From a virus: a stretch of 64,000 bases of DNA. Positions 19,652-60,533 of the stretch are shown one piece after another (position 1 is the first letter of the stretch; each line of letters opens with the position of its first letter). A model generated the notes under the pieces. The model worked only from the letters and a program-made list of their open reading frames with translations. It was not told the DNA's origin and made no database searches. Position numbers and translations under genes: made by a program. Location: positions 1-64,000 of the IMG/VR virus record IMGVR_UViG_3300034073_003542; one strand, written 5' to 3'.

Positions 19652-22600
19652 ATGGCTAGTAAATTCAATCTAACAGCAGAACTTAATCTACGTGGACCAG
19701 CAAATCTACGTACTGTTGTAGCTGATATACGCCGTCAATTAAGTGGCGTAAAGGTTGATGTTGGCGTTAATGTTGCAAAAAATGCTGGTCGTAATATTGA
19801 CAATATAACAAATCGTCTAAATCAACTTAATGCCTCATTAGTACAAGCTCGCACTAGTACCGATCAACTAAACGCTTCTTTTGGTCAATTAGCGGCTATT
19901 GCTAGATCAATAGATACGGTCAATGTTAAAGCGTCTCAATCGACTAAACAACATGCTGACTCGATAAATCAAACAGCAAAAGCTGCTGCTGTAGCTTCTA
20001 GTAGAGTAGAAGAGTTTGGTAAGCAAAGCGCCCTTGCTATTAAGAGATTTGCGGCTTTTAGTTTACCTACTGTAACATTTTTTGCTTTAGGAAGAGCTGT
20101 TCAGTCTGGTATCGAGTCATTTATTGATTTTGATAAACAGATGGTAAAGTTGGAGCAGATCACTGGAAACACAAGAACTCAGCTAAAAAGTTTGAGCGGT
20201 GAAATAACTCGTCTTTCTACAACTATGGGTGTTAGTAGTTCAGAATTAGCTAAAGTCGCCGAAACCCTAGCTCAAGCTGGTTTGAGCGCAAAAGATACTA
20301 CTACTGCTCTTCAAGCTCTAGCTAAAACAGATTTAGCTCCATCATTTGATAATTTGACCCAAACAACAGAAGGCGCTATTGCTGCTATGCGTCAGTTTGG
20401 TTTAGAAGCCAAAGATTTAGAGCGAGCACTAGGATCTATTAATGCTGTTTCTGCTGCGTTTGCTGTTGAATCAGGAGACATTATCGCTGCTATTCAGCGT
20501 ACCGGTGGTGTATTTGCAAGCACAAGTAAGGGCGTAAGTGAAGGCACCGATGCTCTTAATGAGTTTGTTGCTGTGTTCACCAGCGTTCGTGCTACAACGC
20601 GTGAAAGCGCCGAGACAATTGCGACTGGTTTACGTACTATTTTTACGCGTATTCAAAGAGCTGGAACAATCAATCAATTAAAAGACTACGGCATTCAATT
20701 ACAAGACTTAGAAGGTAAATTCGTTGGACCTTATGAAGCAGTAAAGAGATTAAGCGAAGGACTCAAATCTCTCGATCCAAGAGATATTCGTTTCTCTAGC
20801 ATTATCGAAGAGCTTGGTGGATTTCGTCAAATTGGTAAAGTGTTGCCATTAATTCAACAATTTGCTACTGCTCAAGAAGCTCTTAAAGTAGCTCAAAGAG
20901 GACAAGGAAGTTTAACAGACGCCCAAATCAAGGCTCAACAAAGTCTTTCAAACCAATTTTCTAAAGTTCGCGAAAATTTCTTGGCTCTTATGAGAGATAT
21001 TGGTAATAGCACAGCTTTTCAAGGTTTAGCGAAAATTGTTTTGGTTCTATCAAATAGTTTAATTGGTTTAGTTGGGGCCTTTAAACCAGTACTACCTATT
21101 TTGGCTGTTATTGGAGCTATTAAGGGAATTAGCGCTATTGGCAGTTTTTCAAAAGGATTTTTTGGAAGTAAAAAACAAGCAAAGCCATCATTATTTGCTG
21201 GTGCAGCTGGCGAAGACCCAAAAGAAAAAGCTACGCGAGAAAGAAACGAAGCTACTGCTAGAGCAGCAGAAGCTTTAAGGATTAATACAGACGCCCTTAA
21301 TAAATTAACTGGCGCAATTACGGCCCTTGATGCTACTATTCAAAGTAGACCCACCTCAACTTTTAGTAAGGGTGGCAAGGTTCTTGGATTTAACACTGGT
21401 GGTATTGTTCCTGGTAATGGTGGTGGCGATAGAGTTCCAGCTCTTTTAGAGGGTGGTGAAGTAGTCATCAACAGAAGGGCTGCTCAAAGACATGGTAAGC
21501 ATAACATAAATAAATTAAATAGATATGCTTATGGAGGCTTAGTAGACGCCAATATTGTTAATAGTAATGATCAATATATTGGATTAAAAAAAAATGATGG
21601 GACAGCAAAAGAGGATACATTTGATATTAAAACTAAAAGACAATATATTACATTAAAAAATGTTGATAGATATGCTGGAAAAGCAATAGCAGATGGTGAA
21701 GTTGTTAACTTTGATGCTCAAGGATACAAACAAAGAGCCAAAACACCAGGATGGAAACAATTTGAACAAATAATTGAACAATTAGGATATAAAGACTTAA
21801 ACAAATCCACAAAGAGAAACAATTACCCCATTGACTTTACTAAAGGTGGTGAATGGTACGATGCAAAAAACGTATCCTCACCAGTTCCAGATAGGGAATT
21901 AGCAAGAAAGGCTTTACATCATATCTTAACGGAAACATATAAGAACTATGATTATCTCACACCACACAAAAAAATAAAAACTAGAGACGAAAACAGTCTA
22001 CTAAAATATACAAATAAACCTATTACTGTAGGTGGAGATGAGATTGAAGCCACTAGAACTATTACTCAACTTATTCCTAGATATGAAGTAGATAATAATC
22101 AAAAAAATATAGATAAAATACAGGGTGCTATAACTGGTACAAGTAAACAAAAAGGAACACTAAGTCGTAATGCCAATAAGGCTTTACAGCAAGATCTACA
22201 AGACTTACAAACAGATAATACAGTAGGAACATTAGGGGCGCGCAAAATATTATCAGCTAGTAATAGACTTAGTAGTAATTTTACATTAGGTGGATTAGTT
22301 CAAAGCTTTGCGGAAGGTGGTCGTATTGGATATATTGATTCAGACGTTATTAAAGAACAACTCGCTGGACCAAAAGAAAAATCTATAGTCGACGCTATGG
22401 CTAGTTTGGGATTAGGAAAAAATAAGAAAAAAGTAAATACTTATGTTGCAAAACTTATTGATTTAGCTAAATCTTCTCGTGGAGCAGAAGAAGCTTCTGT
22501 TAAGAAGTTGAGTGTGCTTTTTGGTTCTGCTGGTAGTGGCAAGTCTTCTATCCTAACAGGAGCAGCGGGTATTCCAGGAAGATCCCCTTTTACTGGAAGT

Positions 22601-25600
22601 AAACCAATTTTAACGCCTAAAGATATAGATGACGTAGAAGAAGTTGTAATAGCTACAAGTACAGTAACTCCAGATAAAATCAAGAGATTTATTTCTGATG
22701 CAGATGAAGTGTACGCTATTAGTGCTACGACACAAGCAGAACAAGAAAGAATTAAACAAAATAGAAAATCCAGAGATGAAACGGGATTAGGATCTTATGG
22801 GCGTAAAGCTGGGGCCACAAAAACCGCAAAAATTGATACTGTATTTGAAGAAGCTTTATTACTAGAACTACAACAACAAAATCAAGCGCGAGGCAAATCA
22901 CAAAAACTATCTATTTTTGGAAGAAGCGATAGCGATGAATTTAGAGAAAAAACTGGAACAGAACTACCTAGTTTTAGAAGAGAAAAAATTAGCATTGCGA
23001 GAGGTAGCTTTGGACCATTTACCGCTGGTCACGAATATCTACAACAATTTGCCCAAGAAGAATACGGAATCCCACCACAAGCTTTTGCTTATTTGGTTGC
23101 TCCAGACGAAGGAATAGATATTGGGCGAGAAATAACTAATCACGATATTAGAACAGCTATCTTAGATCAATCTATTCGTGAAGCTGTAGTTCAATTAACT
23201 TCTAGAAAAGGCAAGAGCTATAATGTTGGAGCTACTGGTCGTGGAGATAGAAGTATACCACAAGGAATAGAAATAACCAAATCTGGAGCAGCGCAAAGAT
23301 CGGTTCTATTACCTGGTGCCGGTAGCATCAATATTGTTTCTAAGGCTGATGCATCGGCTAAAAAATTAGCTAAACTAGAAAAAGCTTCCCAAGAAGCCGG
23401 ATATAAACTGGTGGATATTCCTCGATTTGAAGGTATTTCTGGATCGCAAGTTAGAGAAGCTATCGAAACTGGAGATCTAACCACTCTACAATATGCTCTT
23501 AATCCCACTTCATATGCTATAATGAAGAAAAATTTACAAAATATTCAAAATAGAATTAGGGCCGTTCCAGAATTAATTACCAAAAATAGAGCAACATTAA
23601 CATCAGAATTAGATCCAATAGACGAGAAGATTCGTGAACTAGGACCAGATCCAGCCAACTTCAAAGAAGTAAATGAGCTTAAAAACCAAAGATATGATAT
23701 CATATCATCATACTCATACTCTTTACATAAATCGTTACAAGAATTAGCTTCACAAGATCCAGTTAATTTTGCTATTGACACAAATATTTCCGACGAAGAA
23801 CTATCCTCTGCTCGACTAGATATAGCCAATAGAGCGCCCTTAAAACAAAGATCAATTGAAGAAGCGGTTTTAGCAACACAACCTAGAGTTTTAGCTGAAT
23901 CTGTTCCAGCTTTCGCAAACAAGAAGAAAAAAACTAGTACTGGTAGAGGTAGACAATATAATATAGAAAGAGAACCTACTTTAAATGAACTTCAAGATTC
24001 TTCTGGACCTTTTTCAGAACTAGCTCAGTTAACAGTTAAAGATCCACAAGAAGTTCAGGCTAAAATTAAAGACTGGCAAGAATTTGTAAAAAAAACTATT
24101 AGAGATGCTGGATTAGATGAATATGGTGGCTTTAAAGCTTTAGATGGAAATTCTGGTCCAGCAACTATTGCTAGTATTTTTGACCAAAAAGCAGGTAAAG
24201 CAAAACCAATAACAAAAAAAGTACCAATATTAGATCCAAACGGTAATCCTACCGGTAAATATCGAGATACAGGAGAAATAATTGGATATCAAAAATCTAA
24301 ATCAAAAAAGGGTCGCACAAAAGAAGATCAAGCAGTTATAGACGCTGTTATTAAAACAGCAAGAGAAGCTAGAGAAAAACTTGTTGACAAATACAAAGAA
24401 GGAAAAAGAGAGTCTTATAGCTTTATAAAGCCAGTAGATGCTACTGAAACATTAGATTTCAAAAAACAAGGACTATTATTTGCGGGAGTTGGTATTAATG
24501 GAGAGCCATATAGCCCAAAAAGATTATCTTTAGGCTCTGGTTTAGATGTTTTAGTTGGAGGATATATATTAAACGATAAAGATACTCGTAAAGAAATTGA
24601 ACAATATTCTGAAAACACAATAAGAGCAGAAAAAACAGCCGCAGAGAAAGGACAAGCTGGTGTGGCTGCGTCTTATCTAAAACGTGGTAAAAAATTAGCA
24701 CTAGATTTTGATAAAACATTAGTTACTGGAGCGGATCTTCATGGCGACGATTTAGATGCGTTTGCTGATATAGATAAAGTAAAGGCTAGTTTAGAAAATC
24801 CTCAAACTAAATTAACAATATTAGGAGAGAAATTAAGAAGAGTATTGGCTAGTCAAAAAGCTCAAGCTACAAAAACTGATTTATTATCTAGAATGAGAGT
24901 TGTAACAGCAAGACCTCATCATACTGTTGGAATTTTAGGAAATTGGTTAGCTCAACAAGGTATACCTATAACAGATATTAAGGGTGTTGGAGGAAAAGGA
25001 TTATCTGATCAACAAGTTGCAGAAGCTAAAGCCGCTTTATTAGATTTAGAGTCATTATTTATTGATGATAATGAAACTAATGTGAGAGTTGCCAAAGAAC
25101 AAGGCTTTAATGCAATTAGATATGGTGCTGCTGAATTCGACGAATCTGGAGAAAGATTACATAGAGGACAAGACGTTATTGAAGGACTATTTCTTCAAAA
25201 TATAATCAAAAGATTTAGCGGTAGACAAGCTGTTGGCGGAATCAATAATACTAGTATGGATTTTCCAACAGGGCTTGGATTAGCAGCAGAATTATTTCCT
25301 GGTTTAGATCCAGATATTCCCACAGACGCAAAAAGAACCTTACGTGGAGCCTCCGACTTAAAGAGTAATATTACAAATTATCTTAAGAAAGAAGGAAGAT
25401 TTAATACAAAATCAGTAGGAGCAGCGCAAGGTCAATTAGAGCCAGTTGGATTTGCTGGCGGAGGTATTGTTCAGCGATTTTCAAAAGCTGGACAAGTAGA
25501 TTACGATCCCAAAACTAAAAGAGTAATGAATATTCTTGGGAAAATTAAAAGTCCAACTGGAACAATAGATCCTAGCAAATTAAGTGAAGCTGAATTAGGT

Positions 25601-28600
25601 ATATTATCTAGTCTTGGCGGAACATCGCAAATAGGTTCTCGTTTATTCGAGGCTCCTGGTGTTGGAGAGATGAATAAATTTGTGAGAGAAAATGAAGCAG
25701 ACAGAGGAAGATACGCAGCTGAAATTAAGACCAAAAATGCTCCAGTAAGAGAATCTCGTGCAGCAGAACAAAGAGCCAGACGAGCAAGAAAAAGTGAAAT
25801 AAGGGAGATGAGTGAAACAAGACTCGCCCAAATGAATCTATTTGGTGGTATGACGGAACTAGATCCAGAAATTATCGAAGGTATTGATAAACCAAATCCA
25901 GAAGATATTTTTGGGGCTTTAAGAGAAGCTTTTGCTGAAACAACAGATAGAGGAAAAGCTTTAGCAGAAGAGGGTGGGGGATTTTTAAGTAAGTTCCGCG
26001 AAGGAATCAAAAAGAAAAAATTTATTTCTGCGACAGAATTCGTAGGAAGTTTACCTAATGCCGAAGAACAAATCAAGTCTGCTCGTAGAGAATTACAATC
26101 ACAGTCAGCCAGCACAAAAGATTCAAAAATACAAAAAAGTCTAGCGGATCAATTAGGAAAATCTTCTATAGGACTAGAAGAATTGGCTGCTTATCGTGGG
26201 GGTGCATTGCCAGCTAATGCTAGCAGAGCGACAAAATTTGCGTGGACAATGAGCCAAATGGTTGAAGGAGCTAATGAGTTAGCTAAAGGTGGAATAGTTG
26301 GATTTGCTAATGGAGGAAACGCAGATTATTATTCTTTAGAGAAGAATAGTGGGTTTAAATCTGGAGAGTTTGATGAATTAGTGCGATTTGCTAAAACTAA
26401 TGGATTCACATTGCCAGAATTTCAAAAATATTTAACAAAAAGACTAGCCGAGAAAAAAACTAATAGTCAGTTAATGATGGACCCATTACAATTGGCTCAA
26501 GCATTGATATCTCATACTCCAACGCCAACAGATGCCCAACGTAAATTAGCTGATTCATTAAAAGGAGGGCCAATAGACGCCCAATATAATCCTAAATATG
26601 ATAGGGTTGTTAAAGGTTTTGCTAGTGGTGGATTGGCCGAACACACAGACTCTATGGCTGGATTGATGCGCGACCTATATGGCAATAGATCAAGCGAAAC
26701 ACCAACCAAAAAACAAAAGAATTTTGGACAAATTGCCTTAAGAACAGGAAATAGAATACAAGCAAATTATTTTGACGGCCCCGATAGAACAGGTTATGTT
26801 ATAGCAGATAAAATGGGAGATATATTCGCTGTTCAATCCTCTTCAGCTACAAGTGGTTATGGTCCAAAGCTATACGATATTGTAATGGAAGCAGCTACAG
26901 AACAAGGTTCGATGCTTACATCTGACAGAAAAAGTGTAAGTAAAGAGGCTAAGGCTGTTTGGGACTATTATTTTAATAAAAGATCAGATGTTAAGAAAAT
27001 ACCATTAGATCCGATTGATTGGGTCTCTAATAACAGACTACTAGATGAAAAACTATATGGACCTCCAGATACATGGCCTCCATATAATGATCCTGCTTGG
27101 GTACTGCAAACAGGGTATCAAAAGAATCCGTCAGATATTAATAATCCAGACTTAGTCCAAAGATTAGCTATTGGTGGATCTGCCTCGTTTGCTAGTGGAG
27201 GAATAGTACCAGCCCGAGTATCAAACGGAGAAGGATTTGTTCCTCCTGCTCAAGCTAAGAGTATTGGATATGGCACCTTATCTAAAATGAATCAAGCAGA
27301 TCGTATTGGTGGATTTGCTAGTGGTGGAAGTATTAGCAGATTTAGTGGGCCAGGTAGCGGAACCAGTGACTCTATTGGGCCTGTTGGTCTACCAGTAGGA
27401 AGTTTTGTAATTCGTAAGAAGGCTATGGATGCTATGGGGTATGCTAAGGGAGGAGTTGTTGGATTAGCTGCTGGTGGTGTTTTAGATAAAGAAAGACTTG
27501 ATTATCTTGACTATTTAGCCAAAGAAAGAGGACAAACAGTAGCCCAATATCAAAGAGCAGAAGCTGGAAATGTAGTTAAAAGAGCTAATGAAATTCAATC
27601 AGAAAGCAAACAAGCTAAAAGAAATCTAACTCTGTTAGGAACATCACAAAGGAAAAATTTGGGCGGAGTTAATGTAGCGGCCACAATAAAAGCAGGCACA
27701 ACAGACGCTAATTTTGCAAAAGTAAATGCTGCTGTAGAAGCTTTTACTAATCAGATACAAAAAGCTGATCCAACACTATCTTACGATAAAGCTAGAGCTG
27801 CTGCTATAGGTATGGCAGATGCCTTGGCTAGAGGTGAGACCTCTGCTGATTCTGTAGCTGTAGCAAATAAGACTCTTAAAGGAAAATTAGATATAACTGT
27901 CACTAGCACTGAAGCCCTTATAAAAGCTGCCGATGATGCTGGTGTCGCTTTAGAAGACTTAGGGGCCGAAGTAACTACAGATGCTACTGGTAAGATAGTA
28001 GGTATTAAAAATAAAGGTTCGGCCTTAACAGATCAAGAATTTCTACAATCTCGTGCTGGGCAAAGATTTGGGGCGCTTGGAAATATACTACCAGCAAGAG
28101 CATTACAAGGATTTGCTGAATCTGGATTTGGTAAGGTGTTAGGTTCTGGTGCCGATTTTATTGAAGGTAAGAGCGGCGGAAGATTTGGTAACCTAAGTAG
28201 AGGTTTTGCTGCTCTTGGTGGATTTCAAGGAATAGGAACTGGATTAGCTGGAGCAAGTGAAGGAATTAAAAGCTTGTTGCCTGTTGGAGTTACTGATGAT
28301 CCCGGTATTGCTGGTACTTTTGGCGGATTAACTGGAGCTGGTACTGGAGCTGCTGTTGGAGCACAATTAGGTTCTTTTGCTGGTCCAATAGGAACATTAA
28401 TCGGAGGTATTGGTGGGGCTATCGTTGGTGGAATTAAAGGATATTTTGAAGCTAGTAATCAAGCAGTACTAAAAGGCGCTTTTGATAAACTTTCAAGCTC
28501 AACATCAAAACTAGACGACGCCTTTAAGCGTCTAGATAACGAATTTACTAAAGATAATTTTAGCGAAACAACAAAAACTTTACGACAAGTTGCCCAAGAC

Positions 28601-31600
28601 AATGTAGCTATCGGTAAAATAGCTACTGAGGAAAAAACTTTTAGTAATTATTTTACAAGACCAAGCGATGCTGTAAGACAAGAAGCTCTAACAGGCTTTA
28701 TATCTCAATCAAGAAATATAGCTACATCAAACGTTAAACTTGGACAAATACAAGCATCCAAATTAGCAACAACAGGCCAATTGGATAATGCAAGCTTTAG
28801 TCCTATTTTAGAGCAGTTTGCTACGCAAGATCAGAAAAACGAAGCGGCAGTTTCTGCATATGTAGCTAAGATGTCAGAAGCTGGAGCAAGCGAAGAACAA
28901 ATAGGGAAAATACTAACAACAAATAGAACACTAGCTATTAAAAAAGGTCTAGAGTTTATCGCAGCAGAAGACGCCCTTATCAAAAAGAATGAACTTACAG
29001 TAAGGGGAATAAAAGAAGTAGAAAGAGCCACATTTAGATTATTAGATGTTTATAGAAAAGCAGGAGCCAACGCCCAAAGATACGGAGACGAACTAGAAAA
29101 TGTTACAAATCGTATTGCTGGATATATAGGAGATTTAACTGGTGCCGCGCAGCTACAAAACGTCAATAGAGAAAATGAACAGGTATTTGCTAATATATCA
29201 GCATATTCAAAAGATGAAATTCGCGCCGCAGCCGAGCAAGTTTCTGGGTTTTCTGGAAATACGCCAGAAACAAAAGAATTAGCTGGGCAAGCAATAGTTG
29301 CCAAAGTATTAACAGATGAATTACCTGGATTGATTTCTAGATCTGGTGGAGATAAAGGAGAAATAATTAAAGGACTAACAGCCGCTTTTGAGGCACAAGG
29401 AATTAAGGGTAGAGGAGTTAATGAAATATTAAGTCAAATTGAAAAAGTCATTGATGACAATAACGATAAAGGAACAGGCTCTGGATCTCTACTAGAAGAT
29501 TTAGATAAGAGTGGGGTTTACACAAAAGCGTCCAAAACTGCCGAAGAAGCAGTTAAGACACTAGGAACCCTGCAAAAACAATACAATGATACCTTGCAAA
29601 AACTTATTGATTTTTCAAACCAAAGAAACCAAATCATACTTAAACAGAACGGCCTATTACGCAAAGCAGAACAAACTAGACTTAAAGCAGAATTAGAACT
29701 AGCTGATGTTTTAGGTAAGAGTATATCATTAGATAAACTTAATAAGCCGTTCGAGACCGAAATAAAATCTCTAACTTCTAGTATTGCTGGCGCTGGATTT
29801 TTAGATGGGGAAACATTAGATCCAACAAAAATTGGACAAGCTATACAAGGAGCTGCTTCTAGAAATAAGGATTTAGAGCAAGCTATTCTTAATGAAAAAG
29901 CACAGTTCAATAATGCTACTACAGAAGAACAAAAAAATCAAATTAATCAAAATATTAGAGGATTCCAAGAAGAACTAGCTAAGAATAAATTAGGGATTAC
30001 AGAAGCAACAGAAGCTCTAGAAAAATTGGCTGACGACGGAACTCGTGCCGCTAATGCTTTAACTAAAATTCAAGAAAAGCAACAAAGAGGTAAAGCTACT
30101 ACAGATAAGATTTTTGAAGCTTTTACATTAGATCCACAACAAGTAATAGAGCGTAATTTTCAAGCCGGTATTTTAGGAAACATACTAAGTGGAGACAGAA
30201 CAGCCCTAGCTACTTCACAAGGTCGTGGTGCTGCTGTTGCTGGATTAGAACAATTTAATGGAATATTACCAAAACAACTATATAATGAATTAAGATCGCA
30301 GTTATTAGAAGCATTTTTAAGATCCACTGGGGGATTAACAGAAGCACAAATTCAACAACAGGTTGAGTCTGTGAAAAATGAGGGCATCGACCCAAATGAT
30401 CCTTTAATTCAAGCTTATAAAGAAGCTTCTAGCAATTCTATTGATGCTATGAATGCTTTAAGGCTATCACAAGATGCAGCAAGAGAAGAACTTACTAAAG
30501 AAATGAGAAATTTGAGCATTAGCTTAAATGGAGTTGGAAATATATTTCAAGGAGCCTTAGGTAGTTCACGCGGACCTGCTCCAGACGAAAAGGCTAGTGG
30601 TGGTAGAATTAGATTATCTAAAGGAGGTAAAGCTGTTCCTGTTAGAGTTTCTAATGGAGAAGGTGTTTTTAACCGAGCAGAAGCTGCAAAAATAGGATAT
30701 AGTAGACTTCAAAAAATGAACCATGCTGATAAAAATGGGCACCAGTATGATGGAGATATTAATCGGTTCAATGGTCCTGGTACTGGAACTAGTGATAGCA
30801 TATTTACACAATTAGAGGAAGGCAGTTATGTTATTAGAGCTAAGGCAATGGAGGCTATGCAGACAGCAGCTAATGGTGGTAAAATTCAAAGATTAGGTGT
30901 CGGCGGAATTACAATTAATGGAAATTATTATCCGGCTAGCGATAAAGAAAACGAATGGAATCCAGAAAAAGAATTAGCAGAAATAAATAGAAGAGCAGAA
31001 GAGCGACAAAAAGAAGCAACTAATAGAAAAGCCGATTACGATAAACAGATGGTTGAAAGATTTGGAACAAAAGAAGATCGTGAGGCCTCTAGAGTAGAAG
31101 CACAAAGAAAGAAAGCCGATGCACAAGCTAGATTAGATGAGGCAACAGCAAAAAGAGAGGCTTCTATTCAGGCTCTTTTAAATCCTGTTCAGGTTTCTGA
31201 AACAAGAACACCAGAAGAAATACAAACAGTAATCAACAATAGAGCTAAACAAATTGAAGATAGATTAACACAAGAAAGAAAAGGTAGAAGCTTGGCCTTA
31301 AAGGGCTTAGATCCTAATTATGAACAGCTAAAAGCAGATAATGCGCCAGCAACAGCAATAGGTAAGCTTAGAATATCGGACAATTTAAAAACTTTTGAAT
31401 CACTAGTGAATGAAGGAGATGAATTAGCGATATACGCTAAGAAATTTGGTCTAGAATCAGCTTTTAGAAAAGAAATAGAAAATAGATATAAATATTCTAA
31501 TAATTTGCCTAGTCGTAGAACTAGATCTATAATACGAGATAAAGACGGAAAAAATCCAGAGTATGTGACCTCTGATAAAACTGAGATACGAAATATTTTA

Positions 31601-34600
31601 AGAAAATTATTTAATGAAAGAATGCGAGCAGAACGAGAAGCTGATCGTAAAGTTCAAGAAGCTAATCCTAATTTAAACAAAAATAATTTCTTAGTTGGTC
31701 TTAAAGCTGCTGGCGAAAATTTAGCTAACAATCCAGTAGCAGGAGCACTAAATAGAGGATATAGAGGAACTATTGGGGCGGGCTTAAATGCTATAGGGGG
31801 CGGACTTGGAACTCTTGTTGGTTTAGGAGCCAAAGGATTAGGATTTAATGATTTTGGAAACGATCTAGTTGAAAGAAGTGGCAACTTAATAGGTGCAGCG
31901 GGAAGAGATGTTATAGACATTTTTAATGCAGATAGACATCAAGCCCAAGGAAGAAATCTTTTAAATCTTTTACAGGGTAATTTTAATTTTGAAGAACAAA
32001 CCAAAACATTTACTGATCAACAACTAGAAAAAAATGTACAAGATTCTGGAAGTTTGGCCCCATTTACCCAGGCCGCACAATTAACATCTGATATTGCCGG
32101 AGGATCATTGTTTGATTCTGGTAATGTGGTTAAAAAATTGGCAACTAGATCCGTATCTAATCTTGGTGAGATTGCTACTAATGTTGGTAAAAGAATAGCA
32201 AGAAATCCATATGTATCTAGAGGAGTACAAAACGCATATAATATATCTGCTAAATATACAGATTTTGTCTCTGGTTTGGGGCCAAATTTAATTAATAGCG
32301 GGAAAAGAAGTATAGCTAATTTTCCTAATGTAATAGGTAAAATAGGTACTTTTACTAAAGATATTGTTGGAGATATCCAACCATTAGATTATTTAAGATA
32401 TATACAAAATAGTATTTCTAATAAAAGTAAAAATATAACAGACACAATCTATAATAAAGTTCCACAATTTGTTAAACAGTTTATAGAAGACCAAAAAAAT
32501 AAAATAAATTTTACTAGACAAAATTTTAAACTACCAAAATTACCACAAAAAAATACGGTATCAAAATCTTTAACTTTTAAAGAAGTTACTGCTAGTGGAT
32601 TTGCTAACTCTGGTGATGCGTTTGAAGCTAGTAATAGATTAAGAGAAGCTCAGTTAAAAGCCAGAGATATTATAGCCGAATATGCAAGTTCTCCAGAAAA
32701 AGCTAGAGAGCTTTTATCTAAAAATAATTTATTTGACGTTGACGTTTTAGAACTAGATCCATCTTTAAGTCAGAAAGTTAATGCTCTTTCAGGAAAAACT
32801 GGTGGGATTGGAGCACAATATTCTCCAATCAATAAAGCTGTTACTATACCTAAAAAAGATTCAGGAATGGGATTACTGATTCATGAAATATTACACGCTT
32901 TTCAACATAATGTCGGAATAGCGTCTAACGCAAAAGATCCTTTTAGATTTTTACAAGCTAAATCTTTAAGCGGAACAAAAGCGTTAAGAAAACAAATGGA
33001 AGATTTTTTGCAACCAGGAGGAGCATATGAAAAATTAGTTTCTGATTTACGCGGAAATGCTAATGGTGCTGGGTTTTATGATAGTAAGAAAATTTTAGAT
33101 CAAGGAAATTTTGAGTTACTTACTAATTTGGGTCAAGCTGCTGATACTGACGCTTTTAAGAATAATCAAGCAGCACAAGACATGTTAAAAGCTATTATAA
33201 AACATATGGGATTCAAGAATGGAGGTCCAGTATACGCTAACTCAGGCGGATTAATGAGCAAATTCTTTAAGCCAAAGGGGGCAGACAAGATTCCAGCTAT
33301 GCTTTCTGAGGGAGAGTATGTTATTAATCCAAAAGCTACTAAAGAAAATTTTAGGTTATTAGAGGCTATAAATAATAATAAAGTAGGTTCCTATAATAAG
33401 GGAGGATTAATTGAAGAGCTTGAAAATCAAGGAAGAGAATACGTAGACAGAGAAATTGATGCTGACGATAGATATCAAATCGCATCTAATTTTCATATAT
33501 TTCAAAGAGAAGGAACAACAAAAGATAATTTACTACAGCTCGCCGCACGCGCTGCTTCAAATAGAAGAGACAAAACCAACGAAGCGCTTAATAATCCACG
33601 AGGTATTCCTTGGGAAGAGTTATCAGACAAAGAAAGAGACGAATTAATAAAACCAGAATTAGATCGTCTTAATTCAATTGCAAACGAATATCAACAAAAT
33701 CCAGAAGAATTCAAAAAGAATAATACGTTTCAAAATTTTTCAGACGCTCTAGATACAAGAATTAATCATGGTGAGTTAGTCAGACTCGCCAAAGAAAAAG
33801 GAACAGATAATTTAGAAGAGACTGCTGGTCAAGCTGGCAAAATGGGTGTTGCTGGATTTGGGCTGGAAAAGGGCTATAAAAAAACAAAAGAGCGTGGAAC
33901 ATTTGATAGACCAAGATTACCTACTAGACAAAAACAAGAAGAGTCGGCACCACAGACTACTTTACAATCCTCATCCGTACAAAATAGTCAACCTTTACCA
34001 AAAGTTAAGCCTAAGTCTATGTCTGAATTTTTTGGAGTAAAAAATATTACTCCAGAAAAAATGCCGTCATACAAAGAAAGAAAAGCACAACAAGCAACTA
34101 ATACTAAACAAAATATTCATAGTCAAGCAGCGAAAAATCCAAAAAGTTTAGCTGGATCTAGATCAAATCTAATTAAAAAAGCCGAAGCAGAAAAACAAGC
34201 ACGAAAAGATAGGGCGGCAGAAAGAATTCGAGAAAAAGTAAAATTAGGTACAGCAACAGCAAATCAACAAGAAATATTAAGTACGTATGATAATCAACAA
34301 AAATATGGATCTCCTGAAGCTCAAGCTCAATTAGCTCAAGGAATACAATCAATTCAAAATACAGGATCTTTTATTGGCGGCATGGCCTCTAATTTATATT
34401 CTGGAGCAAGTAATGCTGTTGCGTCTGCTGGATCTATGTTTGGACAAAATAAACCAGCGACACAAAGAGGTCTTCAGACTCCTACATCTCCAATACCAAT
34501 AGCTTCAGCTACTAAATCCTCTACATCAACAACATTAGCTAATTCTACTCCGATTCCTGCTTCTGGTACTGTATCTCCAGACGCATCAACCGCTAGTGCC

Positions 34601-34960
34601 AGTGCTTCCTCAATAGATATTTCTGGTTTAACTAGTGCTTTTGATATATTTGGTAAACATGTTGCTACTTTTGGAGAACATGTTAATACTTTTGGAACAC
34701 ATACTACTGCGTTTGGTGGATATGTTGATAAACTTCAGACAGCTATTACCGATGCTAAAATTGAGCTTGTAGGAAATTATAAGGTTGACGTTAATATAAC
34801 TGGAGCAGAAAGTATTGGAAAACTAGAAGAAAAAATGAAGGAGTGGGCTACAGAAATTGTAACTTCAAAAGTCAATGAGTTACAATCAAAAGTATCTGAT
34901 GCAACACGCGGAGCGGTAAAGCCTCCAGCCACACAAGGAAAAACTAATAAAGAAAGATAA
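19652..34960 (+). CDS. Giant tape measure protein with embedded enzyme-like domains
   Basis: 5102 residues behind an aagga site. Residues about 150-490 are a TP901-type tape measure core. Glycine-rich hinge modules (GG..VPALLEGGEVVINRRA type) recur near 580, 2516, 3658 and 4540. Embedded domains by motif: P-loop GSAGSGKSS (958-966); nucleotidyltransferase with SFGPFTAGH (H1127) and ISGSQVR (1262-1268); HAD phosphatase with DFDKT (D1685, D1687), VVTARP and IDD (1805-1806); GNAT-like segment about 2357-2460; zincin-like HEILHAFQH (4411-4419). Glycine-zipper hydrophobic segments lie near 2882-2932 and 4040-4066. The C-terminus has FGxH-type repeats. Tape measures set tail length and are ejected with DNA, so these domains may act in the cell envelope or cytoplasm (inference). 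At roughly 1.5 angstrom per residue the tail could approach 0.7 micrometre, less if the globular domains are excluded. Confidence 0.85.
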   Translation: MASKFNLTAELNLRGPANLRTVVADIRRQLSGVKVDVGVNVAKNAGRNIDNITNRLNQLNASLVQARTSTDQLNASFGQLAAIARSIDTVNVKASQSTKQHADSINQTAKAAAVASSRVEEFGKQSALAIKRFAAFSLPTVTFFALGRAVQSGIESFIDFDKQMVKLEQITGNTRTQLKSLSGEITRLSTTMGVSSSELAKVAETLAQAGLSAKDTTTALQALAKTDLAPSFDNLTQTTEGAIAAMRQFGLEAKDLERALGSINAVSAAFAVESGDIIAAIQRTGGVFASTSKGVSEGTDALNEFVAVFTSVRATTRESAETIATGLRTIFTRIQRAGTINQLKDYGIQLQDLEGKFVGPYEAVKRLSEGLKSLDPRDIRFSSIIEELGGFRQIGKVLPLIQQFATAQEALKVAQRGQGSLTDAQIKAQQSLSNQFSKVRENFLALMRDIGNSTAFQGLAKIVLVLSNSLIGLVGAFKPVLPILAVIGAIKGISAIGSFSKGFFGSKKQAKPSLFAGAAGEDPKEKATRERNEATARAAEALRINTDALNKLTGAITALDATIQSRPTSTFSKGGKVLGFNTGGIVPGNGGGDRVPALLEGGEVVINRRAAQRHGKHNINKLNRYAYGGLVDANIVNSNDQYIGLKKNDGTAKEDTFDIKTKRQYITLKNVDRYAGKAIADGEVVNFDAQGYKQRAKTPGWKQFEQIIEQLGYKDLNKSTKRNNYPIDFTKGGEWYDAKNVSSPVPDRELARKALHHILTETYKNYDYLTPHKKIKTRDENSLLKYTNKPITVGGDEIEATRTITQLIPRYEVDNNQKNIDKIQGAITGTSKQKGTLSRNANKALQQDLQDLQTDNTVGTLGARKILSASNRLSSNFTLGGLVQSFAEGGRIGYIDSDVIKEQLAGPKEKSIVDAMASLGLGKNKKKVNTYVAKLIDLAKSSRGAEEASVKKLSVLFGSAGSGKSSILTGAAGIPGRSPFTGSKPILTPKDIDDVEEVVIATSTVTPDKIKRFISDADEVYAISATTQAEQERIKQNRKSRDETGLGSYGRKAGATKTAKIDTVFEEALLLELQQQNQARGKSQKLSIFGRSDSDEFREKTGTELPSFRREKISIARGSFGPFTAGHEYLQQFAQEEYGIPPQAFAYLVAPDEGIDIGREITNHDIRTAILDQSIREAVVQLTSRKGKSYNVGATGRGDRSIPQGIEITKSGAAQRSVLLPGAGSINIVSKADASAKKLAKLEKASQEAGYKLVDIPRFEGISGSQVREAIETGDLTTLQYALNPTSYAIMKKNLQNIQNRIRAVPELITKNRATLTSELDPIDEKIRELGPDPANFKEVNELKNQRYDIISSYSYSLHKSLQELASQDPVNFAIDTNISDEELSSARLDIANRAPLKQRSIEEAVLATQPRVLAESVPAFANKKKKTSTGRGRQYNIEREPTLNELQDSSGPFSELAQLTVKDPQEVQAKIKDWQEFVKKTIRDAGLDEYGGFKALDGNSGPATIASIFDQKAGKAKPITKKVPILDPNGNPTGKYRDTGEIIGYQKSKSKKGRTKEDQAVIDAVIKTAREAREKLVDKYKEGKRESYSFIKPVDATETLDFKKQGLLFAGVGINGEPYSPKRLSLGSGLDVLVGGYILNDKDTRKEIEQYSENTIRAEKTAAEKGQAGVAASYLKRGKKLALDFDKTLVTGADLHGDDLDAFADIDKVKASLENPQTKLTILGEKLRRVLASQKAQATKTDLLSRMRVVTARPHHTVGILGNWLAQQGIPITDIKGVGGKGLSDQQVAEAKAALLDLESLFIDDNETNVRVAKEQGFNAIRYGAAEFDESGERLHRGQDVIEGLFLQNIIKRFSGRQAVGGINNTSMDFPTGLGLAAELFPGLDPDIPTDAKRTLRGASDLKSNITNYLKKEGRFNTKSVGAAQGQLEPVGFAGGGIVQRFSKAGQVDYDPKTKRVMNILGKIKSPTGTIDPSKLSEAELGILSSLGGTSQIGSRLFEAPGVGEMNKFVRENEADRGRYAAEIKTKNAPVRESRAAEQRARRARKSEIREMSETRLAQMNLFGGMTELDPEIIEGIDKPNPEDIFGALREAFAETTDRGKALAEEGGGFLSKFREGIKKKKFISATEFVGSLPNAEEQIKSARRELQSQSASTKDSKIQKSLADQLGKSSIGLEELAAYRGGALPANASRATKFAWTMSQMVEGANELAKGGIVGFANGGNADYYSLEKNSGFKSGEFDELVRFAKTNGFTLPEFQKYLTKRLAEKKTNSQLMMDPLQLAQALISHTPTPTDAQRKLADSLKGGPIDAQYNPKYDRVVKGFASGGLAEHTDSMAGLMRDLYGNRSSETPTKKQKNFGQIALRTGNRIQANYFDGPDRTGYVIADKMGDIFAVQSSSATSGYGPKLYDIVMEAATEQGSMLTSDRKSVSKEAKAVWDYYFNKRSDVKKIPLDPIDWVSNNRLLDEKLYGPPDTWPPYNDPAWVLQTGYQKNPSDINNPDLVQRLAIGGSASFASGGIVPARVSNGEGFVPPAQAKSIGYGTLSKMNQADRIGGFASGGSISRFSGPGSGTSDSIGPVGLPVGSFVIRKKAMDAMGYAKGGVVGLAAGGVLDKERLDYLDYLAKERGQTVAQYQRAEAGNVVKRANEIQSESKQAKRNLTLLGTSQRKNLGGVNVAATIKAGTTDANFAKVNAAVEAFTNQIQKADPTLSYDKARAAAIGMADALARGETSADSVAVANKTLKGKLDITVTSTEALIKAADDAGVALEDLGAEVTTDATGKIVGIKNKGSALTDQEFLQSRAGQRFGALGNILPARALQGFAESGFGKVLGSGADFIEGKSGGRFGNLSRGFAALGGFQGIGTGLAGASEGIKSLLPVGVTDDPGIAGTFGGLTGAGTGAAVGAQLGSFAGPIGTLIGGIGGAIVGGIKGYFEASNQAVLKGAFDKLSSSTSKLDDAFKRLDNEFTKDNFSETTKTLRQVAQDNVAIGKIATEEKTFSNYFTRPSDAVRQEALTGFISQSRNIATSNVKLGQIQASKLATTGQLDNASFSPILEQFATQDQKNEAAVSAYVAKMSEAGASEEQIGKILTTNRTLAIKKGLEFIAAEDALIKKNELTVRGIKEVERATFRLLDVYRKAGANAQRYGDELENVTNRIAGYIGDLTGAAQLQNVNRENEQVFANISAYSKDEIRAAAEQVSGFSGNTPETKELAGQAIVAKVLTDELPGLISRSGGDKGEIIKGLTAAFEAQGIKGRGVNEILSQIEKVIDDNNDKGTGSGSLLEDLDKSGVYTKASKTAEEAVKTLGTLQKQYNDTLQKLIDFSNQRNQIILKQNGLLRKAEQTRLKAELELADVLGKSISLDKLNKPFETEIKSLTSSIAGAGFLDGETLDPTKIGQAIQGAASRNKDLEQAILNEKAQFNNATTEEQKNQINQNIRGFQEELAKNKLGITEATEALEKLADDGTRAANALTKIQEKQQRGKATTDKIFEAFTLDPQQVIERNFQAGILGNILSGDRTALATSQGRGAAVAGLEQFNGILPKQLYNELRSQLLEAFLRSTGGLTEAQIQQQVESVKNEGIDPNDPLIQAYKEASSNSIDAMNALRLSQDAAREELTKEMRNLSISLNGVGNIFQGALGSSRGPAPDEKASGGRIRLSKGGKAVPVRVSNGEGVFNRAEAAKIGYSRLQKMNHADKNGHQYDGDINRFNGPGTGTSDSIFTQLEEGSYVIRAKAMEAMQTAANGGKIQRLGVGGITINGNYYPASDKENEWNPEKELAEINRRAEERQKEATNRKADYDKQMVERFGTKEDREASRVEAQRKKADAQARLDEATAKREASIQALLNPVQVSETRTPEEIQTVINNRAKQIEDRLTQERKGRSLALKGLDPNYEQLKADNAPATAIGKLRISDNLKTFESLVNEGDELAIYAKKFGLESAFRKEIENRYKYSNNLPSRRTRSIIRDKDGKNPEYVTSDKTEIRNILRKLFNERMRAEREADRKVQEANPNLNKNNFLVGLKAAGENLANNPVAGALNRGYRGTIGAGLNAIGGGLGTLVGLGAKGLGFNDFGNDLVERSGNLIGAAGRDVIDIFNADRHQAQGRNLLNLLQGNFNFEEQTKTFTDQQLEKNVQDSGSLAPFTQAAQLTSDIAGGSLFDSGNVVKKLATRSVSNLGEIATNVGKRIARNPYVSRGVQNAYNISAKYTDFVSGLGPNLINSGKRSIANFPNVIGKIGTFTKDIVGDIQPLDYLRYIQNSISNKSKNITDTIYNKVPQFVKQFIEDQKNKINFTRQNFKLPKLPQKNTVSKSLTFKEVTASGFANSGDAFEASNRLREAQLKARDIIAEYASSPEKARELLSKNNLFDVDVLELDPSLSQKVNALSGKTGGIGAQYSPINKAVTIPKKDSGMGLLIHEILHAFQHNVGIASNAKDPFRFLQAKSLSGTKALRKQMEDFLQPGGAYEKLVSDLRGNANGAGFYDSKKILDQGNFELLTNLGQAADTDAFKNNQAAQDMLKAIIKHMGFKNGGPVYANSGGLMSKFFKPKGADKIPAMLSEGEYVINPKATKENFRLLEAINNNKVGSYNKGGLIEELENQGREYVDREIDADDRYQIASNFHIFQREGTTKDNLLQLAARAASNRRDKTNEALNNPRGIPWEELSDKERDELIKPELDRLNSIANEYQQNPEEFKKNNTFQNFSDALDTRINHGELVRLAKEKGTDNLEETAGQAGKMGVAGFGLEKGYKKTKERGTFDRPRLPTRQKQEESAPQTTLQSSSVQNSQPLPKVKPKSMSEFFGVKNITPEKMPSYKERKAQQATNTKQNIHSQAAKNPKSLAGSRSNLIKKAEAEKQARKDRAAERIREKVKLGTATANQQEILSTYDNQQKYGSPEAQAQLAQGIQSIQNTGSFIGGMASNLYSGASNAVASAGSMFGQNKPATQRGLQTPTSPIPIASATKSSTSTTLANSTPIPASGTVSPDASTASASASSIDISGLTSAFDIFGKHVATFGEHVNTFGTHTTAFGGYVDKLQTAITDAKIELVGNYKVDVNITGAESIGKLEEKMKEWATEIVTSKVNELQSKVSDATRGAVKPPATQGKTNKER

Positions 34961-54007: not shown

Positions 54008-54784
54008 TTATTCGACTATTGTTTGCAGTTGTTCGTCTGTAAAAACGTCTCTTTTGTCGATCATTAAACAATATCTATAGTTTGGAGCACTAAATAATAA
54101 GCTTGATTTGTCTTTATTGATATATGAAACAAAACTTGCTAGATCCTCGTATACAGTTTTATTTGCTGTGTGAACTAAGTTCTCAAAGTCTCCAAACCTA
54201 TTAACAGATAAAACAAATCTATATTTTTTATTGACATTAATGACTTCATGTAAAACATTATAGTATGGTGAGTCAACAACCATTGTTTTTACTTCCCATA
54301 AATTTTTATAGTTACTATCTTTGATTATTTTTTCGATATTGAAATAGCTATGACGTTGATCTTTATCTTGATATCTTACAAAGATAAGTTTTTGCGGTTG
54401 AATTGATAGATTCTTTATCTTATCTCCAATTTGTGTTAATTCATCAGAAGACATATCTTTTAGATTAATAACCATAAGATATTGAATAAAATTTGTTTGG
54501 TGGAATGTATTAATTTTTTCTTCTATTGTAGAATCTTCTGGAAAAAATGAATTTTCACGATATCCCAAACATTTCTTTTTATTAATAATGAAGAATTCTA
54601 GTTCATCGTCATAAGCTTCTAATATATCAACATTATGATTTTTATATTTATCGATATAGTTTAAATGGCATCCTTTTTGTGTGCGATCTTCATATATAGC
54701 AAATGCGCACTTTTTACATGGAGTATGTATTTTATCTATTGTTGGTAAAATAGGTTCTTCTATTTTTTGTTCGGTGTTTGACAT
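54008..54784 (-). CDS. Hypothetical protein with Cys cluster, GT-like body
   Basis: 258 residues with a cggagaa site. Residues 22-75 hold CKKCAFAIYEDRTQKGC and a later KKKCLGYRE, a four-cysteine zinc or iron-sulphur site. The body (residues 90-258) is alternating alpha/beta with RFVLSVNRFGD and may be a reduced GT-A fold. It lies between a nucleotidyltransferase-like gene and a GT4, overlapping the latter by 25 bases, so a role in the same sugar pathway is likely but unproven. Confidence 0.45.
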   Translation of the reverse strand: MSNTEQKIEEPILPTIDKIHTPCKKCAFAIYEDRTQKGCHLNYIDKYKNHNVDILEAYDDELEFFIINKKKCLGYRENSFFPEDSTIEEKINTFHQTNFIQYLMVINLKDMSSDELTQIGDKIKNLSIQPQKLIFVRYQDKDQRHSYFNIEKIIKDSNYKNLWEVKTMVVDSPYYNVLHEVINVNKKYRFVLSVNRFGDFENLVHTANKTVYEDLASFVSYINKDKSSLLFSAPNYRYCLMIDKRDVFTDEQLQTIVE

Positions 54785-57627
54785 GTTAAATAATTCTCCG
54801 GTAATAAACGTTCTGGATGATGTCTAATTTCTTCGTGTAGAATTTTTTCATTCATTATTTGTTCTAGTATTTCAACCGCTTCTTTATAAGAAAAACCAGA
54901 AATCTTACCTCGTCTAGCAACAATTCTTTGTGACATATCTTTAATCAAACATTGTATATTTGAGGTTTTTAATAGAAAGGGGTCATTAATAACATTAACC
55001 ACTATATATTCTACAAATTCTCGCGGAGATAAGTTAGATGGTACTGAAATATTTTCGTGGTTTGTCTTAAATATAGTTGGATCATTCCATGCTACTTTTT
55101 TAGTAATATCTATTGTATCAAATACTTCATCCCAAACTTTGAATGTATGATCCCATGTATACATATCAATACATTTTTTTCTGGTTTCTTCCCCCAGTCT
55201 CCTACGTTCATTATGGTCTTTCTTGAAGAAATCATACAAAAACTGAGATGTAAAATCATTATCTGGATAAACTCTATCTGCGTTTGTTTCTAGTTCTCTA
55301 AATTTTTTCTGTATTGGAATAAGTGTTCCTCCAACATTCTCGCAAATTTCTGTCATGGCACTATAATCAACACTTGCTATAGGAACACCAGCACTAGCAG
55401 CTTCTAGTTGTGGCATACCGAACCCCTCGCACTGAAATGTTGCTCCTATTTTAGTAGTCATAGTATGGTCGTCTTCTACGGTAACGCACCAAACATCATC
55501 TTTATAGTTAGATTCTTGAATTCTTTTAATTTTTATTAAATGGTAATTCTGATAATAAACATTGTTAGTTCCGTTGCGTTTGGTTGAGAAATCACCTTTT
55601 TTAATATTACATCCATAAATTTCAAAACTATAACAATCTAATCTGTTTTTCTGGTCTGTTGTATTGTGTTCTACTCTATTGATTTTTGATACCGAAAATG
55701 GTATTCTTAGTCTTCTTAAGATGTGTTTTATTTGTTCTGCAAGTGTGATAGAGATTGTACTAATTTGAGAATAATTTTTTTCTTCACAATAGTGTCCATC
55801 ACCCATAAACATCCCTACTAAAATTTCTTTTTGTTTTTCTATAGGTAGATACAAACACCAATTTGGCAAACATTTATCTTCTTTGCTTCCAAACCAAGTA
55901 AAAAAAAGATTTCCATGTAGAGATGACCATAGAGAATTATCTTGAGCTAATCTATCTCTGTATGGTCTGATTGATTCTACGTTTGATATACTTAATTGTT
56001 TAAAGGCGTTCGATGCAACATAGTGGTTTTCTGTTTCTTTTATATGTGAAGTTATTTTTAGTCCTTTAGCTGTCGAATTTGCCGCATGTCCATCGGCAAC
56101 AAAAAGACCCATAAATCTACAAAAATCTTTATCTATATTAATATATCGTGGATAGGAATAACCACCAATAACCTCTATATAGTCTTCTTTAGTTATATAT
56201 GTATCATTGATTTCTTTGGCAATATCTATTTGTTCTATATCTTTAATCGTATCGTCTATTGGAAAACATAACATATCTCCTGATTTTAATTCATTTAACT
56301 CATATTTTCCTGGTTCCGGCAGTTTTTTTTCTTCTCTTAATTTGTCTCCAATTTTTTCTCTAACTGTTCTCGATTTGTCGTTTTTAATTTCTGTTTGCGT
56401 ATAAGCCGGAAATTCATGATTTTCTGTAGCTATTAATGTTTCGTAGTCTCCATGAATAGACAGTTCTAATATTTTTTTATTGTGACTTTTTGTTAGATTT
56501 TTCCATATGTTAGTAATTGGCTTCCATCTATTTTTATGGGTCCATGCTTCATCTCCAATTTTTGTTTTAGAAATAGGTATCCATAATATCTCGTTATTTC
56601 TTTTAATTCTAATTTCTTCATTTTTACCAAGACATATTGAATATTGTATATATACGTCAAATAGATTATAGACCTCATTCAGTTGTTCATTATTTAAGCC
56701 ATTAGATGTAGTTATAAAAGCTGCACTGTTACGAATACTACAATGAGGGCAATCAACTATTCCGCTACTATATTTATTTGCGCACCATTTAAGACACTTG
56801 TTACACTTATATGTAAAATATACTTTGTCTAATAACTGAAACTCTAGTAATAAAGCAGGAATATCCCAACCAGCTTCTTCTGGATATGATGTGTGAAAGT
56901 AAAGAACGGTATTATCTGCCATTGGATCATTTTCTGTTTTGAGTCTATCAAGATATTTACGAAATACCCGTAGAAGATCTGGCATAAGTTTTCGTTTTTG
57001 GTTTCTCATTACGAAACCCACAACATTAACATCACGACCAAAAGTTTTTATTTGATGTTCTTTTTTGTCGTTTATTGGATAAAATTCATTAGCGTTGATG
57101 CCAGCATTAACAATCTTAGGAAAAATATTTAACTTATCAGCTCCCTCGTTAGTTAAAGTATTTTTGGCCCATTGAGTATAGGGAACAACAATATCAGCAT
57201 TAGCATAAGTATAATACCATTCTGTTTTTTGTGGAGAGGAATCTACTGTCGGCATTATTACCCAATGAAAATGTCTACGATATGGACTCATTTCTTGATA
57301 AGAACTCATCCAATAATCTCTGACATCAAAAACTATATGGGGCTTAAAATCAAGAATAGCTCGATTAAATCTCCAGTTTCCAAATTCATTAATTTTTTGT
57401 GTCTGGTATAGTTTTATTTTTTGTTCATCTTTAAGAGACGGATTATTTGGATATATCTTCCAAACACACTCTTGTACCCTAGCATTATCTTCTGCACAAT
57501 AACATGCTAGTTCTGCAATCTCATACTTACCAGAATTGTGTAGTCTAGTTAGTAGTTCTTTGCCGTAAACCCCATAACCACTTGAAATATAGTGCGCATC
57601 GTTAACGATAAATAATTTTTTTTTCAT
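54760..57627 (-). CDS. GT4 glycosyltransferase interrupted by an intein
   Basis: 955 residues, of which 332-732 are an intein. The extein has an N-terminal GT-B domain (FIVNDAHYISSGYGVYGKEL) with a zinc-ribbon insert (CNKC...C...CPHC, residues 275-296). After splicing, YIQYSI joins CEGFGMPQLEAASAGVP, giving the conserved family 4 nucleotide-binding motif (E...E) exactly across the junction. The host Cys733 would be the C+1 residue. It is the first gene after the ssb terminator, with no obvious promoter, so it may depend on read-through. The substrate is unknown. Confidence 0.8.
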   Translation of the reverse strand: MKKKLFIVNDAHYISSGYGVYGKELLTRLHNSGKYEIAELACYCAEDNARVQECVWKIYPNNPSLKDEQKIKLYQTQKINEFGNWRFNRAILDFKPHIVFDVRDYWMSSYQEMSPYRRHFHWVIMPTVDSSPQKTEWYYTYANADIVVPYTQWAKNTLTNEGADKLNIFPKIVNAGINANEFYPINDKKEHQIKTFGRDVNVVGFVMRNQKRKLMPDLLRVFRKYLDRLKTENDPMADNTVLYFHTSYPEEAGWDIPALLLEFQLLDKVYFTYKCNKCLKWCANKYSSGIVDCPHCSIRNSAAFITTSNGLNNEQLNEVYNLFDVYIQYSICLGKNEEIRIKRNNEILWIPISKTKIGDEAWTHKNRWKPITNIWKNLTKSHNKKILELSIHGDYETLIATENHEFPAYTQTEIKNDKSRTVREKIGDKLREEKKLPEPGKYELNELKSGDMLCFPIDDTIKDIEQIDIAKEINDTYITKEDYIEVIGGYSYPRYINIDKDFCRFMGLFVADGHAANSTAKGLKITSHIKETENHYVASNAFKQLSISNVESIRPYRDRLAQDNSLWSSLHGNLFFTWFGSKEDKCLPNWCLYLPIEKQKEILVGMFMGDGHYCEEKNYSQISTISITLAEQIKHILRRLRIPFSVSKINRVEHNTTDQKNRLDCYSFEIYGCNIKKGDFSTKRNGTNNVYYQNYHLIKIKRIQESNYKDDVWCVTVEDDHTMTTKIGATFQCEGFGMPQLEAASAGVPIASVDYSAMTEICENVGGTLIPIQKKFRELETNADRVYPDNDFTSQFLYDFFKKDHNERRRLGEETRKKCIDMYTWDHTFKVWDEVFDTIDITKKVAWNDPTIFKTNHENISVPSNLSPREFVEYIVVNVINDPFLLKTSNIQCLIKDMSQRIVARRGKISGFSYKEAVEILEQIMNEKILHEEIRHHPERLLPENYLTCQTPNKK
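55432..56634 (-). other. Intein (401 residues) with two LAGLIDADG-type motifs
   Basis: Begins with C332 (CLGKNEEIRIKR, block A). Block B is LIATENHEFPAY (TxxH). Homing endonuclease motifs are GLFVADGH (about 507-514) and GMFMGDGHY (605-613), followed by a block-H-like ITLAEQIKHIL. Block F is VWCVTVEDDHTMTT. The end reads GATFQ then Cys+1, so the terminal residue is Gln, not Asn, and the penultimate residue is Phe, not His. Deleting it restores a perfect GT4 motif. Confidence 0.85.
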
Positions 57628-58171: not shown

Positions 58172-58200
58172 ATTATAACAGGTGGGGAGGTCTGTGTCAA
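58172..58200 (-). promoter_or_regulatory. Perfect sigma-70 promoter for ssb
   Basis: On the minus strand: TTGACA, exactly 17 bases, TATAAT. The -35 box overlaps the stop codon of the dnaE C-part gene. It lies 54 bases before the ssb start. Confidence 0.9.
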
Positions 58201-59834: not shown

Positions 59835-59841
59835 CTATATT

Positions 59842-60528: not shown

Positions 60529-60533
60529 CTAAA

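Follow-up and report, generated by a model that had tools for sequence, protein, structure and literature searches.

A linker-bounded kinase, nucleotidyltransferase and phosphatase block exchanged between tape measure proteins of an uncultivated jumbo-phage family

Why should a phage tape measure protein (TMP) carry the motifs of a kinase, a nucleotidyltransferase (NTase) and a phosphatase? The question is raised by the first 64,000 nucleotides (hereinafter the window) of the 209,847 bp virus record IMGVR_UViG_3300034073_003542, in which one very long gene codes for a TMP with all three sets of motifs in its N-terminal half. A preliminary description, made from the sequence alone, had read them as an intact enzyme cassette and had linked it to the salvage of nicotinamide adenine dinucleotide (NAD), among other roles. 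Here we report that these are real domains with homologues in the TMPs of related phages, that they are bounded by linkers and exchanged between phages as a block, and that the block occupies one of two variable slots in an otherwise constant TMP skeleton. We then consider what such a block might do. The gene and its cassette are as follows:

19652..34960 (+): TMP gene, 5,102 residues, a single open frame without stops, with a near-identical copy in IMGVR_UViG_3300035670_000020
22280..22324 (+): linker FTLGGLVQSFAEGGR, residues 877-891, upstream of the cassette
22325..22966 (+): P-loop kinase-like domain of zeta-toxin/PNK-like fold, residues 892-1105, starting IGYIDSDV
22523..22549 (+): Walker A motif GSAGSGKSS, residues 958-966, with K964 invariant in 20/20 copies and invariant D991, R1041 and R1051 downstream
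22967..23581 (+): HIGH-superfamily NTase domain, residues 1106-1310, identified by PF16581, PDB profile matches and fold
23003..23032 (+): nucleotide-binding motif GSFGPFTAGH, residues 1118-1127, with G, P and H invariant in 20/20 copies
23435..23455 (+): ISGSQVR motif of the NTase, residues 1262-1268, with S and R kept in 19/19 aligned copies
24419..24691 (+): N-terminal part of domain X, a family-wide domain, flanking the HAD insertion
24692..25126 (+): HAD phosphatase, residues 1681-1825, like the T4 Pnkp 3'-phosphatase by fold
25184..25342 (+): C-terminal part of domain X (DFPTGLG...IPTDAKRT), residues 1845-1897
25445..25501 (+): linker VGFAGGGIVQRFSKAGQVD, residues 1932-1950, closing the cassette

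Three enzyme domains within a tape measure protein

The start region of the protein matches PhageMin_Tail (Pfam, 1.5e-25) and the PHROG tape measure (2.3e-30), and its identity as a TMP is borne out by this N-terminal homology, by the position of the long gene amid structural genes (a weak match to a major head protein lies upstream) and by 507 relatives, belonging to one uncultivated jumbo-phage family, which a profile of the TMP N-terminus recovered from IMG/VR. A misassembly or gene fusion is ruled out by the near-identical second contig together with these hundreds of relatives. The cassette motifs lie where the preliminary description had placed them, spanning residues 958-1806 (about 850 residues) in our motif scan, with TAGH at residue 1124 (nt 23021) and, in the HAD domain, LDFDKTL at residue 1684 (24701), TARP at 1752 (24905) and IDDNETN at 1804 (25061).

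That the domains are real rather than chance occurrences is settled by their homologues. A6, an alignment of 20 distinct kinase-NTase modules that share 26-40% identity with the window copy, retains without exception G72 and K73 of the Walker A motif, D100, R150 and R160 downstream of it, and G227, P231 and H236 of the GxFxPxTxGH motif, while S372 and R377 of the ISxxxxR motif are present in 19/19 aligned copies. In a corresponding alignment of 24 HAD modules (A7), the positions of D1685, D1687, T1689, A1753, R1754, K1793, D1805 and D1806 are invariant in 24/24. Mean entropy in the motif columns is 0.23 bits in A6 and 0.07 bits in A7 (medians 1.64 and 1.83, respectively), and in neither alignment were any of 100,000 random column sets as conserved, ruling out chance motifs. 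Across these 20 kinase-NTase and 24 HAD modules identity to the window copy is about 25-40%. Ratios of nonsynonymous to synonymous substitution rates (dN/dS) of 0.04-0.19 between close pairs support purifying selection on the catalytic motifs.

The predicted folds agree with the motifs. An AlphaFold2 model of A6 (predicted local distance difference test score, pLDDT, 84.4; predicted template modelling score, pTM, 0.83) was matched by Foldseek to NaMNAT, NadM and PPAT at E-values of 4e-4 to 2e-3 and to the zeta toxin kinase 6epi at 1.1e-3, all with probability 1.00. Together with the [HT]xGH and ISxxxxR motifs and a match to PF16581 (cytidyltransferase-related C-terminal region) above the cut-off in a single-sequence search (1.7e-7), these matches place the second domain in the HIGH superfamily. 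By sequence its best match is the UPF0348/TmcAL-like family: UPF0348 MJ0951 was found at E 0.009 with the single sequence and came first, at E 3.2e-6, when a profile with homologues was compared with the PDB, a search that also returned a NadR-type NMNAT at E 6.5e-4. The first domain belongs with the zeta-toxin/PNK-type kinases, having the zeta toxin fold and K73, D100, R150 and R160 of A6 in 20/20 copies; a lysine followed 27 residues on by an aspartate and then by two lid arginines is what we take to be the PNK/zeta-type arrangement.

The third domain shows the HAD superfamily signature of DxDxT, a [TS] motif II, a motif III lysine and a motif IV DD pair, all invariant or T/S in 24/24 copies. 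Its model (pLDDT 84.8, pTM 0.68) has as its best fold match in the PDB the T4 Pnkp 3'-phosphatase (E 3.2e-4), with Pnkp1/Rnl/Hen1 also matched, while a sequence search of the PDB returned no relative. The moderate TM-scores in these fold comparisons reflect the use of entire multi-domain models. The HAD domain is nested within domain X, which is found in most of the TMPs, often without it. Domain X (24419-25342) itself has invariant D...(D/E)xK-like residues (D281 and K305 of A7) and is possibly a PD-(D/E)XK relic. On all of these counts (motif conservation, selection and predicted folds), the presence of three catalytic-type domains inside a TMP stands as the preliminary description had it, and the structure search it had proposed gave the matches listed above.

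How far do these modules spread? They are confined to tape measures, within the reach of profile scans. Scanning IMG/VR with a kinase-NTase profile (A5) yielded 25 loci, for all of which the frames were extracted (23 directly and 2 by position); every one is a long TMP-type frame, with the TMP N-terminus present wherever the N-terminus falls inside the locus, as it does in most. A scan with HAD and domain X yielded 31 loci, of which 30 have the TMP N-terminus in the same frame, with the remaining one being cut by the contig end. Among the best 80 of the 507 TMP relatives, which were the ones retained, the HAD is present at 26 loci and the kinase-NTase at 4. The relatives were reached only via DNA polymerase III and thereafter the TMP N-terminus: a subunit of this polymerase led to about 70 related uncultivated contigs, which, when queried with the cassette and with the TMP N-terminus, yielded two HAD homologues (36-39% identity) and, beyond the near-identical one, 17 related TMPs.

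Other routes led to little. Searches by tblastn of 50,697 phage records with the cassette, its kinase-NTase part and the HAD, consensus-like relatives included as queries, gave no match, and exact-motif scans of IMG/VR and GTDB genomes returned just the near-identical contig or stand-alone cytidyltransferases. Pfam named almost nothing in 15 related TMPs, PADLOC gave marginal ATPase matches only, and Bacillus phage G, by capsid the sole relative in culture, has no TMP annotated within 15-60 kb.

A constant skeleton and two variable cargo slots

The TMPs of this family consist of a constant skeleton and two variable cargo slots. Complete ones range from 1,778 to 6,560 residues, and in most of them the skeleton comprises about 490 residues at the N-terminus, about 530 in the middle and about 65 at the C-terminus; the C-terminal piece went undetected in several complete TMPs. 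In the window these pieces are:

19652..21106 (+): N-terminal skeleton with the PhageMin_Tail region, residues 1-485, conserved across the family
28877..30460 (+): middle skeleton, residues 3076-3603, conserved
34700..34894 (+): C-terminal skeleton, residues 5017-5081, conserved

Among complete TMPs, slot 1, between the N-terminal and middle skeleton pieces, spans about 870-3,100 residues and holds all of the kinase-NTase modules, and slot 2 spans about 95-2,700. Were every residue to count toward the ruler, tail lengths within this single family would spread more than 3-fold, a spread that would not follow if the skeleton alone were measured out.

The borders of the modules are seen both in single sequences and in comparisons. 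Ahead of most kinase-NTase modules there is a linker with the pattern GG(L/I/F)(V/I)QKFxxGG (GG..QKF..GG). Three loci (L213, L214 and L215) have in common a block of about 910 residues, from the kinase to the end of the HAD domain, with 87-88% DNA identity, as against 72-75% for the N-terminal backbone in pairs with L213 and 79% between L214 and L215. Upstream of the block there is a stretch in L213 that cannot be aligned with the other two, and the block edges fall about 20-25 residues beyond the modules, within the linkers. The pair L216 and L217 shows a like contrast (74% in the N-terminal part and 88% in the block). Moreover, L169 and L221 have the HAD ahead of the kinase-NTase, and many TMPs have the kinase-NTase without the HAD or the HAD without the kinase-NTase. 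Thus, the modules are linker-bounded and have been exchanged between phages as a block.

Another stretch of cargo, residues 641-885 of the window TMP (21572-22306), displays a PD-(D/E)XK-like pattern (YPIDFTKGGEWYDAKN), with no relatives among the TMPs collected, and residues 2317-2510 (26600-27180) are GNAT-like (GYGPKLYDIVMEAATEQG), for which a PDB sequence search gave no confirmation; the latter stretch sits in a region 54% identical to part of the L119 TMP. In slot 2 there is a zinc-peptidase-like HEILHAFQH (residues 4411-4419; 32882-32908), with HExxH motifs also turning up in further TMPs of the family. Directly after a linker, the TMPs of L116, L120, L121 and L164 have a second, shorter HAD-like module (VDFDRTL...SIISKS...GGSKEPAL), distinct from the HAD of the window TMP. 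One related TMP frame, at about 42-65 kb of IMGVR_UViG_3300032249_000861, runs to 7,577 codons and is among the largest phage proteins. Elsewhere in the window, on the minus strand, a glycosyltransferase-type protein (54760-57627) is apparently interrupted by an intein with a LAGLIDADG endonuclease, and DNA polymerase III alpha (58197-62592) is split into two proteins, one with the PHP and catalytic parts and the other with the finger, HHH and OB parts.

Tape measures as possible delivery vehicles

What, then, might enzymes be doing in a tape measure? On balance, we favor, if with modest confidence, the view that the TMP doubles as a delivery vehicle for the swappable linker-bounded enzyme block in slot 1. 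The cargo would be a zeta/PNK-like P-loop kinase fused to a HIGH NTase and followed by a domain with a nested Pnkp-like HAD, a block that would remain catalytically competent in most phages while being swapped at the linkers. It would travel unfolded or extended inside the tail tube, enter the cell together with the tape measure as the DNA is ejected, fold there, and act within the first minutes on nucleotides or on RNA or DNA ends, blunting host defence or conditioning the host. Nucleotide and RNA-end enzymes would be of no use outside the cytoplasm, and their upkeep hence argues for delivery. Injection into the cell is a step that we infer by analogy: tape measures pass out of the tail and into the membrane (PMC13277306), TurboID-ManZ labels the lambda TMP in the course of injection (PMC13190303), and contractile injection systems have some TMP-related effectors, for which lumen-adapted conformations followed by refolding have been proposed (PMC13277306).

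Two departures from the motifs weigh against this proposal. The preliminary description had taken all key residues to be intact, which holds for the active-site motifs of the NTase and HAD but not for the window kinase: at the four near-invariant positions after Walker A where the consensus has D83, L87, R88 and R92 (18/20 copies each), it reads I, S, P and S. Judging from these residues, the window kinase may be altered, weak or changed in its substrate, with its relatives intact. Further, the relative at L208 has an altered P-loop, AAAGKT, and reads TPAH where TxGH would be expected. These deviations would also suit the alternative that the domains are degenerate ex-enzymes, which no longer catalyse and have been retained as folded spacers or for a structural role in the tape, as would their location in a structural protein and a skeleton-plus-filler layout, which is equally compatible with filler. 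Yet filler is not expected to have its catalytic columns as the most conserved ones in 20 and 24 divergent copies, and entire blocks have been traded, with unrelated modules taking their place; we consider this alternative improbable.

The delivery proposal can be taken further to posit that only the skeleton of about 1,100 residues is tape, with the thousands of residues of exchanged modules being a counter-defence kit for the first minutes that refolds in the cell, here a nucleotide/RNA-end kinase-nucleotidyltransferase-phosphatase set. This wider version is tentative, and we lean a little away from it.

Among described systems, the polyvalent proteins (Iyer et al. 2017, PMC5512222) are the nearest concept. 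The window TMP has a multi-enzyme architecture in a virion protein family and, if its cargo is delivered, would act as a polyvalent cargo protein of polymorphic make-up. Polyvalent proteins are likewise very long, virion- or DNA-associated multi-enzyme proteins thought to be active on entry, with recombining cassettes having been proposed for them. In contrast, the carrier here is a tape measure (the word 'tape' is absent from that paper) in which the skeleton is constant and linkers bound the slots, and the domain sets found there do not include the kinase-HIGH NTase-HAD combination. Other tape measures also incorporate enzyme domains, namely peptidoglycan hydrolases and transglycosylases (e.g., SPbeta YomI); however, those cut the cell wall at penetration, whereas the nucleotide/phosphate enzymes described here would be useful only inside the cell. 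Tme and Sle1, the TMP-related contractile injection effectors, share TMP-derived cargo, exchangeable effector ends and ejection through the tail tube (PMC13277306), but they belong to contractile nanomachines and bear their cargo C-terminally, whereas the slots here are internal to a phage TMP. A literature search, leaving aside subscription journals and preprints, found no account of such enzyme-cargo tape measures.

At the level of domains, NadR similarly combines a P-loop kinase and a HIGH NTase in a single chain, but as an NMNAT followed by a ribosylnicotinamide kinase, whereas here a different type of kinase comes first and a HAD is added. Membership in the NadR family was rejected on this order and on the comparison with E. 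coli NadR by hhalign, which covers the NTase only. T4 Pnkp (PseT), which provides the best HAD fold match, has a P-loop kinase and a HAD phosphatase in one chain; in the TMP a HIGH NTase and about 280 residues separate the two, and the HAD is nested in another domain. It too was rejected as a family for the cassette, there being no significant sequence similarity and hhalign to PseT matching motif loops only. The stand-alone phage 'cytidyltransferases' (phrog_395 and phrog_3041; L003-L008) share a HIGH NTase with GxFxPxTxGH and give weak profile matches, but they are free proteins without a kinase module and lie outside tape measures.

Candidate substrates and implications

If the cargo is delivered, on what would it act? 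We rank RNA-end processing slightly above NAD restoration, without commitment to either. As a special case of delivery, the block might be an RNA end-healing kit that arrives at once and repairs tRNAs cut by host anticodon nucleases: the kinase would add phosphate to 5'-OH ends and the HAD would take 3'-phosphates off, with the TmcAL-like NTase either acting on tRNA or activating a group. The Pnkp-like fold of the HAD with its Pnkp1/Rnl/Hen1 matches, the PNK/zeta-type spacing of the invariant kinase residues and the rank of UPF0348 MJ0951 as top sequence match of the NTase are in keeping with this, as are the RNA ligase and RtcB encoded by the phage's own genome. Against it, the profile comparison with T4 PseT is weak, many TMPs do not have the kinase-NTase and the HAD together, and of the other cassette-bearing records, some of them partial, most lack RNA ligase and all lack RtcB. 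We regard such a kit as unlikely, though it merits consideration. The RNA ligase (PHA02142/PF09414) and the RtcB homologue lie at about 165-170.4 kb of the record (L245), where a LAGLIDADG endonuclease gene adjoins the ligase.

Restoration of NAD would have the NTase convert nicotinamide mononucleotide (NMN) to NAD and the kinase convert nicotinamide riboside to NMN, countering NAD-depleting defences from the first minute. NaMNAT and NadM do head the fold matches of the NTase, and the profile match to NadR-type NMNAT points the same way; but HIGH NTase matches are generic, with PPAT scoring about equally. In the phage's own genome, genes for an NAMPT/Namat homologue, a NADAR protein and a phosphoribosyl-synthetase-like protein lie in a cluster, and a search of that genome found no separate PF01467 NMNAT, though the same search also missed the TMP's own NTase. 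Conversely, none of ten other cassette-bearing phage records (107-244 kb) has an NAMPT, a route of the NARP1 type can do without an NMNAT (PMC12774641), and this scheme leaves the HAD without a role. The specific connection to NAD salvage made in the preliminary description is not borne out, given a domain order the reverse of that of NadR, a zeta-like kinase, a Pnkp-like HAD and an NTase nearest to UPF0348/TmcAL-like proteins by sequence, and we give NAD restoration little credence. The cluster itself (L244, record positions 108564-112148, outside the window) resembles a NARP1-type system for NAD reconstitution with NADAR added; its NAMPT/Namat homologue has 504 residues, its NADAR-domain protein was identified at 8.7e-50, and the third member is the phosphoribosyl-synthetase-like protein. 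No link between the cassette and NAMPT, RNA ligase or RtcB was found across the carriers.

Should the enzyme block indeed be delivered, the tape measure would be a changeable payload in addition to a ruler and membrane channel, and there would be a reason for the tape measures of 5,000-6,500 residues that some phages have. The family offers a test of whether tape length is set by all residues or by the skeleton alone, and of whether folded enzymes are able to pass the tail tube. Delivery would also point to a new class of factors for immediate counter-defence or host takeover.

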